DNA of 64,000 nt, from positions 124,001 to 188,000 of the forward strand of contig NZ_SEWZ01000004.1 of the NCBI RefSeq assembly GCF_004307425.1, written 5' to 3'. Below are positions 21,626 to 38,402 of this stretch, piece after piece (the first letter of the stretch is position 1; the number at the start of each line of letters is the position of its first letter). A model generated the notes under the pieces. It was not told where the DNA came from, made no database searches, and saw only the letters and a program-made list of their open reading frames with translations. The position numbers and the translations under genes were made by a program. The stretch comes from Aquirufa antheringensis (lineage in GTDB: Bacteria; Bacteroidota; Bacteroidia; Cytophagales; Spirosomataceae).

Positions 21626-22549
21626 ATGACTATAACGCAATTAGAGTACATTGTCGCCCTAGCTGATTTGCAAAGTTTTTCCAAAGCAGCGGATTATTGC
21701 TGTGTTTCTCAGCCCAGCCTGAGTATGCAGGTGCAAAAGTTAGAGGATGAATTAAACCTTACCCTTTTTAATCGCAAGGCGAAACCTCTCGTTCCTACCC
21801 TAGCAGCAAGAGAAGTTATCGCAAAAGCACGGGCGATTCTGAATGAAAGTAATTCGATTCTTTCTCTTTCCAAAGGTTGGTCGAATCAAGTTAATGGTTC
21901 TGTTTCCATCGGTGTGATTCCTACGATTGCGCCTTATTTAATGCCCAAGTTTCTAGCGGATTTTCAGTTGAAGTACCCTGATTTGACTATTCGCATTGCG
22001 GAAACGACCACTGCTAATATCAAAAAAGGCATTCAGGAAGGAAAAATTGATATCGGAATTTTGGTTACCCCATTAAATGATTCGTTAGTAGAGATTCCAC
22101 TCTATTATGAAGAATTGTTCTTGTACTCTAATGTATGGGAAGAGGATGGTTCGAAACTGAAATCGACGTTAGATCCCTCTAAGTTATGGCTATTAGAGGA
22201 AGGTCATTGTTTAAGTAGCCAAGTGAATTCCATCTGTAACTTACCTTCAGGCCCATTAGTGGGCACTAAGATGACATATCAAACGGGAAGTATGGAAACG
22301 ATTGTGCGTCTGGCTGATCAAGGATTTGGCCAAACCATTATACCCCAAATGTTCGTGGATTATTTAGATCCTAAACTAAAAGAAAAAGTGTACACTTTGC
22401 CTGAACCTAAGCCTGTACGTGAGGTGGCATTAGTGCATGCCATTTCTTATTCAAGAAAAGCGATTGTTAAAGCGTTAGAATTAGAGATTTTGGCACACAT
22501 ACCTGATTCGTGGAAACAAGCGCAGGAACGGAACATTATCCCCATATAG
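21626..22549 (+). CDS. oxyR: Hydrogen-peroxide sensor, LysR-type regulator OxyR
   Basis: 307 residues: an N-terminal LysR winged helix-turn-helix (about 1-60, SFSKAADYCCVSQPSLSMQV) and a substrate-type regulatory domain. Cys195 and Cys204 in EEGHCLSSQVNSIC have the same nine-residue spacing and context as the peroxide-sensing pair Cys199/Cys208 of Escherichia coli OxyR, supporting disulfide-switch activity. It is divergent from ahpC, which it probably activates after oxidation. The start codon lies within an inverted repeat likely to be its own operator. The end overlaps the convergent MFS gene by 14 bases. Confidence 0.95.
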   Translation: MTITQLEYIVALADLQSFSKAADYCCVSQPSLSMQVQKLEDELNLTLFNRKAKPLVPTLAAREVIAKARAILNESNSILSLSKGWSNQVNGSVSIGVIPTIAPYLMPKFLADFQLKYPDLTIRIAETTTANIKKGIQEGKIDIGILVTPLNDSLVEIPLYYEELFLYSNVWEEDGSKLKSTLDPSKLWLLEEGHCLSSQVNSICNLPSGPLVGTKMTYQTGSMETIVRLADQGFGQTIIPQMFVDYLDPKLKEKVYTLPEPKPVREVALVHAISYSRKAIVKALELEILAHIPDSWKQAQERNIIPI

Positions 22550-23849
22550 TTTTTGCCTTAGCGCTTCTTAATAAAGGTCTAAGGAACAATAAACTAGCCC
22601 CAAAAACAAAGGTTAGTACCAAAATGCTGATCCGCATATTGCCCGTTAATTGAATAACAAGGCCAAACATAAACGTGCCTAAAACTGTTGACATTCGGTC
22701 ACAAACGTCAAAGAAGCTAAAATAGGACGCGGTATCCTTCTCCCCTTTTGGACATAATTTAGCGTAAGTAGCGCGGCTATTGGATTGAATTCCGCCCATC
22801 ACAAAACCGATGGCAGTCGCTAGTAAATAAAAATTAAATTGAGACGTGACCGTATACGCATAAGCGCAAATGAATATCCAAACTAGCACAATTAAACCTA
22901 ATGCTTTGATATTACCTATCCAGCCTGATAATCGGGCACAGAAATAGGCGCCAGGAATAGCTACGAGTTGAATCAGTAAAATAGTGATAATTAATGCATC
23001 TTCCGGTAAATGCAATTCTTGGCTTCCAAATAAGGCGCCTAAATACATCACCGTTTGGGCTCCCATATTAAATAAGAAGAAACTGACTAAAAAGAATTTG
23101 ACCTCTTTAATCACGATTACTTCCTTAAATACTTTGCGAAGTTCTTTAAAACCTCCCAGCCACCAGTGCCTCGTATCTTTCTCTTTTGCAATTGAATCAG
23201 GAAGGTAGTGTAAGGGGATTTGTGCAAATAATAACCACCACAAACCAACGGTTAAAAATGAAACGCGAGCAGCCATCTCGCCCCCTATTTCGCCATACCA
23301 TTCGGGTTTTAGAAGCATCGTTAGGTTTTGGACTAATAATAAAACAGAGCCTATGTAACCTAAGGTAAACCCTTTTGCACTTAAACGATCAAATCGATCG
23401 GGGGTGGCTATTTCAGGCAGAAAACTATTGTAGAATACCATACTTCCACCCCATCCAATGATAGAAAATAGGAATCCGAGCGTACCTATATAGTAATGGC
23501 CCTTACTGAAAAAAAATAAGGCTATGCAGCTGAAAGACCCTAGATAACAGAAAAAACGCATAAAACTTTTCTTCGCGCCTGTATAATCCGCAATTCCAGA
23601 GAGGAAGGGCATCAATATAGTTAGGGCTAAGAAGGCAACGGAAATAGAATAAGAAAAAACAACCGTATTGCTTAGTTCGAAACCTAAAATGGAAATCATT
23701 CCAGGCGTAGTGCTTCCTAGGGTAATCGCTGCTGAAGGAAAATAAATGGGAAAAATGGCTGAAGTAATCGTTAAAGAATGCACAGAATTAGCCCAATCAT
23801 AAAAGGCCCATGCATTTAACGTTTTCGGATTATTCAGCTTTTGTTCCAT
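22536..23849 (-). CDS. UMF1-family MFS transporter (ATG22-like)
   Basis: 437 residues with about twelve transmembrane segments. The opening LNAWAFYDWANSVHSLTI matches the UMF1/ATG22 signature (W-YDWANS), as does PFLSGIADYTGAKKSFM between the next helices. Members are inner-membrane exporters of uncertain substrate; yeast Atg22 moves amino acids out of the vacuole, which cannot be transferred directly. The start overlaps the topoisomerase IV A stop by one base (TAATG), so it is the last gene of the operon beginning at 28,706. It ends by overlapping oxyR. Confidence 0.85.
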   Translation of the reverse strand: MEQKLNNPKTLNAWAFYDWANSVHSLTITSAIFPIYFPSAAITLGSTTPGMISILGFELSNTVVFSYSISVAFLALTILMPFLSGIADYTGAKKSFMRFFCYLGSFSCIALFFFSKGHYYIGTLGFLFSIIGWGGSMVFYNSFLPEIATPDRFDRLSAKGFTLGYIGSVLLLVQNLTMLLKPEWYGEIGGEMAARVSFLTVGLWWLLFAQIPLHYLPDSIAKEKDTRHWWLGGFKELRKVFKEVIVIKEVKFFLVSFFLFNMGAQTVMYLGALFGSQELHLPEDALIITILLIQLVAIPGAYFCARLSGWIGNIKALGLIVLVWIFICAYAYTVTSQFNFYLLATAIGFVMGGIQSNSRATYAKLCPKGEKDTASYFSFFDVCDRMSTVLGTFMFGLVIQLTGNMRISILVLTFVFGASLLFLRPLLRSAKAKTIWG

Positions 23850-26569
23850 TAAAATAAGCCTAATTGTTCCCCTTTAGGTGGGTTTTTTATTTCAAAAGGA
23901 ATATCCTCTTTCTCTTCCGGTTGTTCTTTTTCTTCGGGGAAATTGACTACGAATTCAGGCTCCTCTGAAGTGGTTTCTGCTGGTGTTTCTGTGGACACTG
24001 AAACGGTTTCTGCTACCTCTTCCACTTCCTCCGCTTCCTCCATCTCTACAGGTTCAGGTACATCTGGTGACTTTTCAACGACTGGAGCTTCCTCCTTCGT
24101 TGCAAGGAAAACAACTTCGACTAGTTTCGGATAATTTAACTTACTTCCTAAAGCCTTCCACCCTCTTACTTCGGCTAACTCATCGATTGGAATGATTTCT
24201 AACTCATTCGTCTTACCATCTGGTTTATGCTTTATCTGTACGTTAGGGGCATAATTATCTGTTACAGCAATTAGTTTACTTGCTTTATGATCCGATATGA
24301 ATAAGAATTTCTTATCTAATGATGTTGTTTCTAAATGGAATCGTTTGATTAAGTGCGTCTTGTTAGATCCATCGAAGTAAGCTGCAGAAATAATAGCTTG
24401 AGGCTCGAATTTCTTTAAGTACATGATTTCCTCAGCCGGGTAACGATTTGTTAACTCAAAGTTAGTTAACTCATAATTACCTGATCCATAAATAGCAAGT
24501 ATGCTATCATTTGGTTCAAAATTGCCGATATGGTCTCCGTGTCCATCGCGGTTTAAGCGACCAATCGTAGGATCGTACCAGATATCCACCCCACCTAAAG
24601 TAGATACTCCCGCTGATTTCATTGTGATTTTACGAACGGGGTATTTGGTGAGCATATTTCCTAAAGACTCTCGGCCTTTAATCGCTAGTTTCGCGAAGTC
24701 ATAGTCAAATTGCTTGATTTTTGCCGTACAATTTGCGGTTAGACTAATTTGGATTACCTCAGCCTCGCCGTTTTCATTGGCAGAGAAATAGGTAAGCTTA
24801 GACTTCGCATTATCGCTACTCACTTTGTATTCGCGATCACGCGTAACCGAAGTTACTTTGAAACGTTTTACATAGGAAGTGCCAGACTTGCCATCTAAGT
24901 AAACGACGTTATAGACTTTTCTATCGTCGTTTTTCTTAAATACGGAGCAATAAATAATATCGCGACCCACGAATACCTTTTCTTGTACTTTAGTCACGAC
25001 ACAGGTACCGTTTGAGCGAAATACGATGATATCATCGATATCTGAGCAATCCATTACGTATTCGTCTTTCTTCAAGCCATAACCGATGAAACCATCTTCG
25101 CGGTTGACATATAACTTCTGGTTAGCAGCAGCAACGACAGTTGCAGAAATGGTATTAAAGTTCTTGATCTCCGTGCGACGCTCTCTCCCTTTTCCGTATT
25201 TAGCTAATAGATTCTTGAAGTAATCTATTGCAAAACGGATCAAGTTCGCCAAATGATCTTCTACTTCGGCTAATTCGTCTAATAAACGCTTCATTAATTC
25301 GTCTGCTTTGAAGCTATCGAATTTTGAAATACGCTTGATTCTGATTTCTAAAAGGCGAAGAATATCCTCCTCGGTGATTTCGCGGTAGAAGTCTTTTTTG
25401 TAAGGCTCTAAGCCTTTATCTACTGTTTGAATAACTAATTCAAAGGTTTCACATTCTTCGATATCACGGTAGATGCGGTTTTCGATGAAGATTTTTTCCA
25501 AAGAGCTGAAAAGCACTTTTTCCATCAACTCCCCTTTGCGAATCTCTAATTCTTGACGAAGTAAATCAACTGTTTGGTTAGTAGAAACGCGTAGTATTTC
25601 GCCTACACCCATAAAGTGTGGCTTATCTTCGATGATCACGCAGGCATTAGGTGAAATAGATACCTCGCAATCGGTAAAGGCATACAAGGCGTCTATCGTC
25701 ACGTCCGGTGAAATACCCGGTGCTAATTGAATTTGAATCTCTACGTCTTTGGCCGTATTATCAATTACCTTCTTGATCTTGATTTTACCCGTATCATTTG
25801 CCTTGATAATGGAGTCGATTAATGAAGTGGTTGTGGTCGTGTACGGAATCTCCGTTATGACAAGCGTTTTCTTGTCTAATTCATCGATTTTAGCGCGAAT
25901 ACGGATTTTTCCACCGCGAAGTCCATCGTTATAATTAGAGGCATCCATCATTCCACCTAATAGGAAGTCTGGATACAGTTCTACTTTCTTGTTATTTAAG
26001 ATGTCGATGGATGCCTGGATAATCTCACAGAAATTATGAGGCATAATCTTCGTAGCTAAACCTACGGCAATACCTTCAACTCCTTGAGCTAGTAAGAGTG
26101 GGAATTTAATCGGTAAGGTAATGGGTTCACGCTTACGTCCATCATAGGACATTTGCCATTCGGTGGTTTGGTTGTTAAAAACAACATCGCTCGCGAATTT
26201 GGATAAACGAACCTCAATATAACGAGCCGCTGCAGCACTGTCGCCGGTGCGGTTATCTCCCCAGTTACCTTGGCAATCAAATAAGAGCTCTTTTTGGCCT
26301 AAATTAACAATCGCATCATTGATAGAAGCATCCCCGTGCGGGTGGTATTGCATCGTTTGACCAATGACATTCGCAACCTTATTGAAACGGCCATCGTCCA
26401 TTTCCTTCAATGCGTGCAAAATACGACGCTGAACGGGCTTCAATCCATCTTCTACGGCCGGAACTGCACGCTCTAAAATAACGTAAGAAGCATATTCTAA
26501 GAACCAATTCTCATACATCCCTGCTACCGCAATCTGATTCTGTAGTGCGCCGTCCGCTGTTTCACTCAT
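23849..26569 (-). CDS. parC: DNA topoisomerase IV subunit A with acidic tail ending in QLGLF
   Basis: 906 residues of the GyrA/ParC family. The N-terminal winged-helix and tower region carries the catalytic Tyr117 in AAARYIE and the QTMQYHPHGD segment; the C-terminal propeller region follows (about 500-820). The last 81 residues (826-906) are a low-complexity Glu/Pro/Val-rich acidic tail, ending in GEQLGLF at the extreme C-terminus, which resembles a sliding-clamp-binding motif. The partner ParE is encoded at 36,516 on the other strand. Topoisomerase IV decatenates daughter chromosomes. Assignment as topoisomerase IV instead of gyrase follows the Bacteroidota-type divergent sequence and lack of a typical GyrA box; moderately sure. 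Confidence 0.9.
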   Translation of the reverse strand: MSETADGALQNQIAVAGMYENWFLEYASYVILERAVPAVEDGLKPVQRRILHALKEMDDGRFNKVANVIGQTMQYHPHGDASINDAIVNLGQKELLFDCQGNWGDNRTGDSAAAARYIEVRLSKFASDVVFNNQTTEWQMSYDGRKREPITLPIKFPLLLAQGVEGIAVGLATKIMPHNFCEIIQASIDILNNKKVELYPDFLLGGMMDASNYNDGLRGGKIRIRAKIDELDKKTLVITEIPYTTTTTSLIDSIIKANDTGKIKIKKVIDNTAKDVEIQIQLAPGISPDVTIDALYAFTDCEVSISPNACVIIEDKPHFMGVGEILRVSTNQTVDLLRQELEIRKGELMEKVLFSSLEKIFIENRIYRDIEECETFELVIQTVDKGLEPYKKDFYREITEEDILRLLEIRIKRISKFDSFKADELMKRLLDELAEVEDHLANLIRFAIDYFKNLLAKYGKGRERRTEIKNFNTISATVVAAANQKLYVNREDGFIGYGLKKDEYVMDCSDIDDIIVFRSNGTCVVTKVQEKVFVGRDIIYCSVFKKNDDRKVYNVVYLDGKSGTSYVKRFKVTSVTRDREYKVSSDNAKSKLTYFSANENGEAEVIQISLTANCTAKIKQFDYDFAKLAIKGRESLGNMLTKYPVRKITMKSAGVSTLGGVDIWYDPTIGRLNRDGHGDHIGNFEPNDSILAIYGSGNYELTNFELTNRYPAEEIMYLKKFEPQAIISAAYFDGSNKTHLIKRFHLETTSLDKKFLFISDHKASKLIAVTDNYAPNVQIKHKPDGKTNELEIIPIDELAEVRGWKALGSKLNYPKLVEVVFLATKEEAPVVEKSPDVPEPVEMEEAEEVEEVAETVSVSTETPAETTSEEPEFVVNFPEEKEQPEEKEDIPFEIKNPPKGEQLGLF

Positions 26570-36515: not shown

Positions 36516-38402
36516 ATGTCAGTGGAAGAAAATCAACAAAGCGCACCCATTTATAACGACGATAGTATTCGTTCCCTAGATTGGAAAGAGCACATTCGGC
36601 TTCGTCCGGGTATGTATATCGGTAAATTAGGCGATGGTTCATCGGTGGATGATGGTATCTATGTTCTTGTGAAAGAGATCATGGATAACTCGATTGATGA
36701 GCACATGATGGGAAATGGGAAGTCCATTGACGTTAAAATCTCTGATCATAAGGTGGAAGTGCGTGATTACGGTCGGGGTATTCCTTTGGGAAAAGTGATC
36801 GATTGCGTTTCCAAAATTAATACGGGCGGTAAGTATGATTCAGGTGCTTTCCAAAAGTCCGTAGGTCTGAATGGTGTAGGTACAAAAGCTACGAATGCCC
36901 TATCTAATTATTTTAAGGTACAATCTTACCGAGATGGCCAAACAAAGTGGGCTGAGTTTTGTAAGGGTGAATTAACCGCTGAATCTCCTGGCATCGAAGC
37001 ATCGAATGGGAAAAGTGGAACGCACGTTCAGTTTGAACCAGATAATACGATCTTTAAAAACTATCATTTTATTCCGCAGTATTTAGATTCCTTATTTTGG
37101 AATTATGCCTATTTAAATGCGGGATTGACCATTAATTTTAATGGAGAGAAGTATTTCTCCCAAAACGGACTCTTCGACTTACTTTCTAAAAAGACGAATG
37201 CAGAAGAAAACCGGTATCCTATTATTCATTTAAAGGGTAATGATATCGAATTAGCGATAACCCATAATAACCAATACGGAGAAGAATATTACTCTTTCGT
37301 AAACGGACAAAATACGACTCAAGGAGGAACTCACCTGGCGGCCTTTAGAGAGGCGATTGTTAGAACGGTGCGTGAGTTTTTTAAGAAAGACTTTGATCCA
37401 TCGGATGTACGTGCGAGCATCGTGGGTGCCATTGCGATTCGGGTTCAAGAACCCGTTTTTGAATCTCAAACGAAGACTAAATTAGGTAGTACGACTATTT
37501 CACCTGATTCAAACTCTACCTCGATTCGTACGTTTGTAGGAGATTTTGTAAAGACGGAATTAGATAATTATTTGCACCAAAATCCAGCTTCTGCCGATGC
37601 TTTACTAAAGCGTATTTTACAATCAGAACGCGAGCGTAAGGATATTGCTGGTATCAAGAAATTAGCTAATGAGCGTGCGAAGAAAGCGAACTTACATAAT
37701 AAGAAATTAAGGGATTGTCGTGTACACTTGTCGGACGAGAAATCAGAGACACGTCACGATACTACTTTGTTTATTACGGAGGGTGATTCAGCTTCTGGGA
37801 GTATCACCAAATCACGTGATGTGCAATTGCAGGCTGTATTTAGTTTACGAGGTAAGCCATTGAATAGCTTTGGCCTAACAAAAAAGATTGTCTACGAAAA
37901 TGAGGAGTTTAATCTATTGCAACATGCGTTAGATATTGAAGATTCCTTAGATAATTTGCGTTATAATAAGATTGTCATTGCGACGGATGCCGATGTAGAT
38001 GGCATGCACATTCGGTTGTTGATTTTAACCTTCTTTTTGCAATTCTTTCCTGATTTAGTGCGTAATGGTCACTTGTATATTTTGGAGACTCCCCTATTTA
38101 GAGTTCGAAATAAGAAAGAAACGCGTTATTGCTACTCTGATGAAGAACGTCGCAATGCGATCGAGGCCTTAGGTCCTAAGCCTGAGATTACACGATTTAA
38201 GGGTTTGGGTGAAATTTCGCCTGAGGAATTCGGAAACTTTATTGGTGAAGATATTAAGTTAGAGCCAGTGATTCTAGAAAAAGATTTTACCATTCCGCAG
38301 CTTCTGACCTATTACATGGGTAAGAATACACCGGAACGTCAAAAATTCATCATTGACAACCTCGTTGTTGAAAAAGATTTGGAAGAGGTTTTATTAGGGT
38401 AA
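36516..38402 (+). CDS. parE: DNA topoisomerase IV subunit B
   Basis: 628 residues of the GyrB/ParE family: GHKL ATPase motifs ([26 protein letters not shown]), transducer domain, then a TOPRIM domain with [22 protein letters not shown] and the C-terminal [14 protein letters not shown]. It supplies ATP hydrolysis and metal-dependent cleavage chemistry for the tetramer with subunit A (23,849-26,569), used for decatenation at chromosome segregation. The start is preceded by an AT-rich segment without a clear promoter box. The gene ends immediately next to the convergent TPR gene with no spacer. Confidence 0.93.

Follow-up and report, generated by a model that had tools for sequence, protein, structure and literature searches.

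The 64,000-nucleotide stretch of Aquirufa antheringensis DNA analyzed here (hereafter, the window) carries on its minus strand a parC gene for subunit A of topoisomerase IV, and the protein that it encodes ends in the pentapeptide QLGLF, a proposed binding motif for the sliding clamp DnaN and the subject of this analysis. The genome, of 2.5 Mb in 11 contigs, belongs to the phylum Bacteroidota; the closest matches to its ParC were in metagenome-assembled genomes of Cytophagaceae (92–95% in the best segment), and the nearest named isolate by ParC was Aquirufa ecclesiirivi (81%). The parts of the gene and protein are as follows:

23849..26569, minus strand: parC, topoisomerase IV subunit A, 906 amino acids (open reading frame; matches to NF009397 and PF00521; without the GyrA-box pattern)
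25244..26470, minus strand: catalytic core, ParC residues 34–442 (PF00521 match)
24083..25132, minus strand: C-terminal beta domain, ParC residues 480–829 (AlphaFold2 model)
23852..24094, minus strand: acidic, Pro/Glu-rich tail, ParC residues 826–906 (composition; predicted disordered from residue 830)
23888..23905, minus strand: DIPFEI, a second short patch in the tail, ParC residues 889–894 (sequence)
23852..23866, minus strand: QLGLF, ParC residues 902–906, proposed sliding-clamp-binding motif (sequence and conservation)
23849..23851, minus strand: stop codon of parC (TAA), sharing its final base with the start of the next ATG (TAATG)

The open reading frame (ORF) scored 1385 bits against NF009397, a model titled DNA gyrase/topoisomerase IV subunit A (cut-off 780), and 357 bits against PF00521 (cut-off 31); in the NCBIfam profile search it scored under the cut-offs of the parC_Gneg and parC_Gpos models. 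The sequence AAARY at residue 113 is presumably the active-site tyrosine region. The pattern R[GA]GxG, which we take to represent the GyrA box, was found beyond residue 470 in none of 120 ParCs and in all 36 GyrAs read from ParC-bearing genomes; a first, stricter version, later widened to this form, had matched 6 of the 36 GyrAs and none of the 120 ParCs. Read from its sequence, the ORF at 26569..23849 (minus strand) is a topoisomerase IV-type A subunit. Its translation ends in NPPKGEQLGLF-stop, and residues 826–906 (81 amino acids) comprise 27 Asp/Glu, 5 Lys/Arg, and 11 Pro. An earlier note on this DNA had described a 906-residue topoisomerase IV subunit A ending in QLGLF after an acidic tail of 81 residues, and the ORF, the composition and the profile matches confirm that description.

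An AlphaFold2 model of residues 480–906, built with 15 sequences, had a mean predicted local distance difference test score (pLDDT) of 71 and a predicted template modeling score (pTM) of 0.44. The beta domain was modeled mainly as strands, in blocks mostly at pLDDT 71–89, with lower values in blocks 171–210 (46–66) and block 221–230 (64) of the model's own numbering. Residues 830–906 were below pLDDT 50 and undocked from the beta domain, and the motif is accordingly predicted to be placed in an exposed, flexible region. By eye, patches resembling DIPFEI occur in other ParC tails (VDFEI, VGSTIDL, VGETIDLDI, and VGDTIELF; noted in loci L072, L079, L103–L105, L107, L110, L118, L136, and L145), often directly ahead of the clamp motif, and a few tails end with such a patch.

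Comparisons were made across 120 ParCs, all distinct, from 79 of 80 named loci, 40 other genomes of a phylum sample, and the window. The named loci were the best 80 of 321 and lean toward near relatives; the fairer count comes from the phylum sample, which holds 148 genomes, 41 with a ParC over the NF009397 cut-off (spread over 11 families) and 107 without. One locus with no stop within its contig (L074) and three other, diverged A subunits (L233–L235) were dropped, and the genomes in all counts are not independent by descent. Motifs were scored as Qxx[LMI]F or Qxx[LM]x[LF]. These forms were checked against section 10 of a clamp review, in which the canonical motifs are Q-aliphatic-x-[LM]-[FL] for the pentapeptide and Q-aliphatic-x-[LM]-x-[FL] for the hexapeptide (PMC11139829).

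QLGLF was 100% identical among 20 relatives (the window and 19 Aquirufa-like loci, 76–95% in the best segment), as against a mean pairwise identity of 14% for linker residues 831–870; residues 501–815 of the same proteins were 75–89% identical. The earlier note had proposed to look for just this contrast between a constant motif and a changing acidic linker. Across all 120 ParCs, 113 had the motif within their last 80 residues. It lay within the last 10 residues of 75 of the 79 named loci (76 for the last 80) and of 32 of the 41 ParCs in the phylum sample (37 for the last 80). With the last 60 residues considered, the phylum sample again gave 37 of 41 ParCs, which came from 10 of the 11 families; 2000 shuffles averaged 1.5 and never exceeded 7. 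The pentapeptides took many forms (QLGLF, QIGLF, QITLF, QTALF, QTTLF, QPTLF, QASLF, QADLF, QAELF, QTELF, QKDLF, QGDLF, QSSLF, QYSLF, and QIPLF), and all six members of genus g10 had a hexapeptide, QITLSL, QIGLVL, or QITLTL, in place of a pentapeptide. Among the 37 motifs of the phylum sample, 23 had an aliphatic second residue. In 92 tails with a pentapeptide, the motif stood at the end in 57, 1–2 residues in from it in 31, and 10–46 residues in from it in four, a freedom of position that is typical behavior for a short linear motif. Two ParC tails of the same order (L118 and L136) held two clamp-type motifs each (QTALF with QADLF, and QASLF twice).

The QLGLF-type DNA pattern (Leu/Phe at positions 2 and 4) had six sites in the 2.5-Mb genome in any frame, of which ParC was the only long ORF, the others falling in ORFs of 16–77 amino acids. 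Fifteen sites matched the pattern for Q[LF]x[LF]F with TRR immediately after it; ParC was the sole credible gene ending at one of them, an 82-residue leucine-rich ORF coming next. A clamp-type motif lay within the last 10 residues of 107 of the 120 ParCs vs. none of 480 other ORFs (at least 120 amino acids, from the window and the flanks of the 80 loci). The codons that spell QLGLF differed widely, with 56 distinct 15-mers in 74 QLGLF loci and 13 among the 20 near relatives, and because the DNA spelling varies in this way, selection acts on the peptide.

The C-terminus of ParC fits the published pentapeptide clamp consensus and is identical, letter for letter, to that of Escherichia coli PolB (Pol II). 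The Pol II peptide TLMTGQLGLF is reported to bind the clamp with a KD of 1.7 μM, with a crystal structure (3D1E) available (PMC11139829), and a change from QLGLF to QLGAA is reported to shorten clamp binding by Pol II (PMC5731819). The two proteins thus share the same five residues at the extreme C-terminus, although Pol II is a polymerase and ParC a topoisomerase with a long acidic tether that is predicted to be disordered. Y-family polymerases (Pol IV, QLVLGL; UmuC, QLNLF) likewise carry a penta- or hexapeptide that is often C-terminal (PMC11139829; PMC3716654) and, unlike ParC, are polymerases as well.

Polymerases of the genomes studied here offer a comparison from within the phylum. The Y-family polymerase of the window's own genome has QLNLF, the motif given for E. 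coli UmuC (PMC3716654); its gene (L153, contig 5) lies directly upstream of that for a second DnaE-type polymerase (dnaE2-like). In DinB, 16 of 28 readable proteins matched the motif patterns (QLKLF, QLTLF, QLTLDF, and others) and the other 12 had QLx[FI]xF near the end, two of 30 loci being unreadable. Among 24 readable DnaEs, with an xxSLFG-type motif upstream of a GHP landmark, 16 had QxxLF or QxxMF; six of 30 DnaE loci were unreadable and four of 34 genomes had no DnaE locus. The clamp itself, DnaN, is encoded in the same genome, with 110 identities in 354 positions to E. coli DnaN and with 8dt6 as its nearest solved relative by sequence. Of the 26 residues that we take to form the groove region of the E. 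coli clamp, it keeps 14, including R152, T172–L177, P242, N320, M362, and P363, and it is plausible that its groove could read QLGLF as the E. coli groove does.

GyrA provided a paralogue control. The window's genome has one A subunit besides ParC, a GyrA on contig 3, which ends in EEVTEE and was ruled out as a carrier of the motif. GyrA ends could be read in 36 of the 41 ParC-bearing genomes and in 57 of the other 107 genomes of the phylum sample. None of the 36 had a clamp-type motif. Among the 57 genomes without an NF009397 ParC over the cut-off, seven did (shuffle mean 0.17), a difference with a Fisher p of 0.04 when kinship is ignored. Both counts came from the matches listed, in which most of family f16 did not appear. 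Five of the 57 genomes had two A subunits, and the motif was absent from all five.

Reading was then extended to relatives of three of these positives, family f16 being reached only as such relatives. Genus g48 had Q[AGKP][DN]LF near the end of GyrA in all 11 readable cases (13 genomes, two without a match), genus g67 had Q[NK][DE]LF in five of seven readable cases, and both members of family f14 had QxxLPL. Seven of eight readable GyrAs in family f16 had QLDLF, QIELF, QIDLF, QIQLF, or QIDLDF, and the eighth ended in QLPLL. Four loci were dropped for an unreadable GyrA end (L264, L273, L276, and L369), and L373 was read via its second piece, L375. Counted by family, the motif was on GyrA in 10 of the 22 single-A families that were read (QLDLF, QIDLF, QADLF, QNDLF, QISLPL, and others; L236–L275 and L353–L375, nearly all single-A genomes). 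The pooled count of 33 of 101 single-A genomes is inflated, as searches were centered on known positives, and 7 of 57 vs. 0 of 36 is the less biased comparison. On one reading, the hook accompanies the sister-unlinking enzyme and can move, without being obligatory, given the families that lack it. The observation of the earlier note on a single protein thereby extends to 10 of the 11 ParC-bearing families of the phylum sample and to GyrA in some families without ParC.

On the strength of the consensus fit, the identity with Pol II, the GyrA control and the comparison with DinB and DnaE, the earlier note's view of QLGLF as a likely clamp motif is supported, and we consider it highly probable from these sequence comparisons that the C-terminal peptide of ParC is a functional clamp-binding motif and ParC a client of DnaN. 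Several observations weigh against this. The second residue was non-aliphatic in 14 of the 37 motifs of the phylum sample (QTALF, QPTLF, QTELF, QKDLF, and others), a weaker form in E. coli terms. No Q-motif was found in four of the 41 ParCs of that sample, namely the sole two members of family f6, with IGDLF lacking the preceding Q (L106 and L109), and two proteins ending in APTLF (L137) and GKLF (L141). The motif was likewise absent from three of the 79 named loci, those of Roseivirga (L072), Fulvivirga (L079), and Thermoflexibacter (L080).

On the side of the clamp, 12 of the 26 groove-region residues are changed in the window's own DnaN (Y153P, Y154A, L155M, R246N, V247A, S322K, Y323L, V344N, S346A, V360L, M364V, and R365M), and the affinity reported for E. 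coli therefore does not transfer to this protein. Eight of the 24 readable DnaEs lacked the Q, and the DnaE of the window's genome (L148/L154) has TASLF where E. coli has QADMF in the alignment, so the consensus does not hold for all clients here; given that this DnaE motif lacks the glutamine, the QLGLF of ParC is the closer fit of the two. Finally, GyrA had no Q-motif in 12 of the 22 single-A families (f13, f15, f19, f22, f23, f26, f27, f32, f33, f35, f36, and f40), where Q-less ends included EPSLFE (L186, f15) and PDDLFGG (L216, f27), and because of these families it does not hold throughout the phylum that a topoisomerase bears a clamp hook.

The same conserved peptide might instead be recognized by another replication or segregation partner that reads QxxLF, such as DnaX/tau, the SMC hinge, ParE, or FtsK. 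Topoisomerase IV has such partners in other phyla, where the MukB hinge is described as binding the C-terminal domain of ParC (PMC3950513) and SeqA, FtsK and others are listed among its partners (PMC8084294), and in E. coli the Pol III alpha C-terminal peptide is reported to bind clamp and tau alike (PMC11139829). Against this, ParC orthologues carry either clamp form, QxxLF or QxxLxL, in equivalent positions, and DinB in the same genomes ends in very similar letters. We know of no other partner that accepts both forms, and consider this explanation improbable. A peptide that folds back onto ParC itself, for autoinhibition or control of DNA binding, seems less probable still: while the acidic tail adjoins the beta domain of the C-terminus, ParC tails by eye repeatedly show a second patch (DIPFEI or GxTIEL), and acidic GyrA tails have a role in DNA wrapping, most GyrA tails in genomes with ParC are also acidic and none of the 36 has the motif, and the position of the ParC motif varies from the very end to 46 residues in. 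The AlphaFold2 model did not support a self-docked tail, with the caveat that weak docking can be missed in a model of this kind (15 sequences, pTM 0.44).

It could also be that the peptide has no function at the protein level, its codons being kept for the start signal of the downstream gene or its presence being due to chance. The parC stop does overlap the next ATG, yet the motif persists in loci without such an overlap, it is spelled in 56 ways in 74 loci, and the shuffles and the 480 neighboring ORFs yielded almost no motifs. Codon diversity, shuffles and neighboring ORFs together rule out chance or a DNA-level constraint as the source of the motif, and we give this explanation practically no weight. 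Clamp binding remains our preferred explanation of the ParC tail.

Two other ORFs of the window bear on the surroundings of parC:

22536..23849, minus strand: downstream ORF, 437 amino acids, a transporter-like membrane protein by eye, whose start overlaps the parC stop
36516..38402, plus strand: type IIA topoisomerase B subunit, 628 amino acids, probably parE (ORF; PF00204 match at C4:161233-161640)

The downstream ORF had no NCBIfam match and stands outside the mechanism proposed below. The TAATG overlap of stop and start (window 23847–23851, minus strand) was present in several near relatives and not in others. The genome has two type IIA topoisomerase B subunits, one of them the ORF in the window, which we call only a probable parE because its matches to the NCBIfam gyrB and parE models were below the cut-offs. 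It lies ∼10 kb from parC on the opposite strand, with no shared operon, an arrangement that differs from the parCE operon described for Bacteroidetes (PMC8565304). This B subunit ends in KDLEEVLLG and was ruled out as a carrier of the clamp motif in this genome.

Eukaryotic topoisomerase II alpha has been reported to associate with PCNA, a pairing for which no paper appeared among the open-licence PMC matches listed. That pair is alike in joining a type IIA topoisomerase to a sliding clamp, although the clamp, the motif and the eukaryotic host differ. E. coli topoisomerase IV, of the same enzyme class as the one studied here, is described as brought to replicated DNA by a partner, through MukBEF and with a link to SeqA, a route that is known in part (PMC3950513; PMC11253446), so that the partner is an SMC complex or SeqA rather than the clamp proposed here; the last 40 residues of E. 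coli ParC, which ends in RASSGDSEE, contain no clamp motif. In E. coli and Bacillus subtilis, topoisomerase IV is reported to be spread over the nucleoid (PMC12448304). Caulobacter ParC is said to sit at the replisome (PMC4470285, citing Wang and Shapiro, 2004), a placement attributed to FtsK with no physical interaction demonstrated (PMC4470285), which differs from a direct tether. Among the listed open-licence PMC papers, a scope that leaves subscription papers and preprints outside, no report of a clamp motif on ParC or GyrA was found, and the words topoisomerase, gyrase and ParC do not occur in the main text of the 2024 clamp review (PMC11139829). The novelty of a link between ParC and the clamp is not proven.

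In the mechanism that we propose, QLGLF would plug into the hydrophobic groove of DnaN, and the acidic tail, predicted to be disordered over about 77–81 residues, would serve as a flexible tether that could span many nanometers. Topoisomerase IV contains two ParC subunits (PMC11253446) and would thus present two hooks to a clamp that is a dimer with two grooves. Once hooked, it could ride clamps at the fork, or clamps remaining on new DNA, and would thereby be concentrated where sister duplexes intertwine. Clamps stay behind replication forks. Precatenanes are described as forming behind the fork on new DNA (PMC11253446; PMC8084294). That the motif serves to place topoisomerase IV on newly replicated DNA appears fairly likely, and we hold this with less confidence than clamp binding itself. 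Induction of parCE by mitomycin C in Bacteroidetes (PMC8565304) fits a replication-coupled role and is no proof of it.

More broadly, the balance of our comparisons leans toward the sister-unlinking type IIA topoisomerase being a clamp client in Bacteroidota and neighboring groups, with the hook on ParC if topoisomerase IV is present, missing from GyrA in the same genomes, and on GyrA in several gyrase-only families. If this is true, clamps remaining on new DNA would single out the region behind the fork for unlinking, by a route unlike those through MukB, SeqA or FtsK. For much of a phylum, a direct clamp tether would answer in testable form how topoisomerase IV is recruited, and the clients of the clamp would come to include a further class of enzyme. 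Such a tether is also predicted to be able to pass to whichever enzyme decatenates where topoisomerase IV is absent, and it would set topoisomerase IV and polymerases in competition for the clamp's two grooves.

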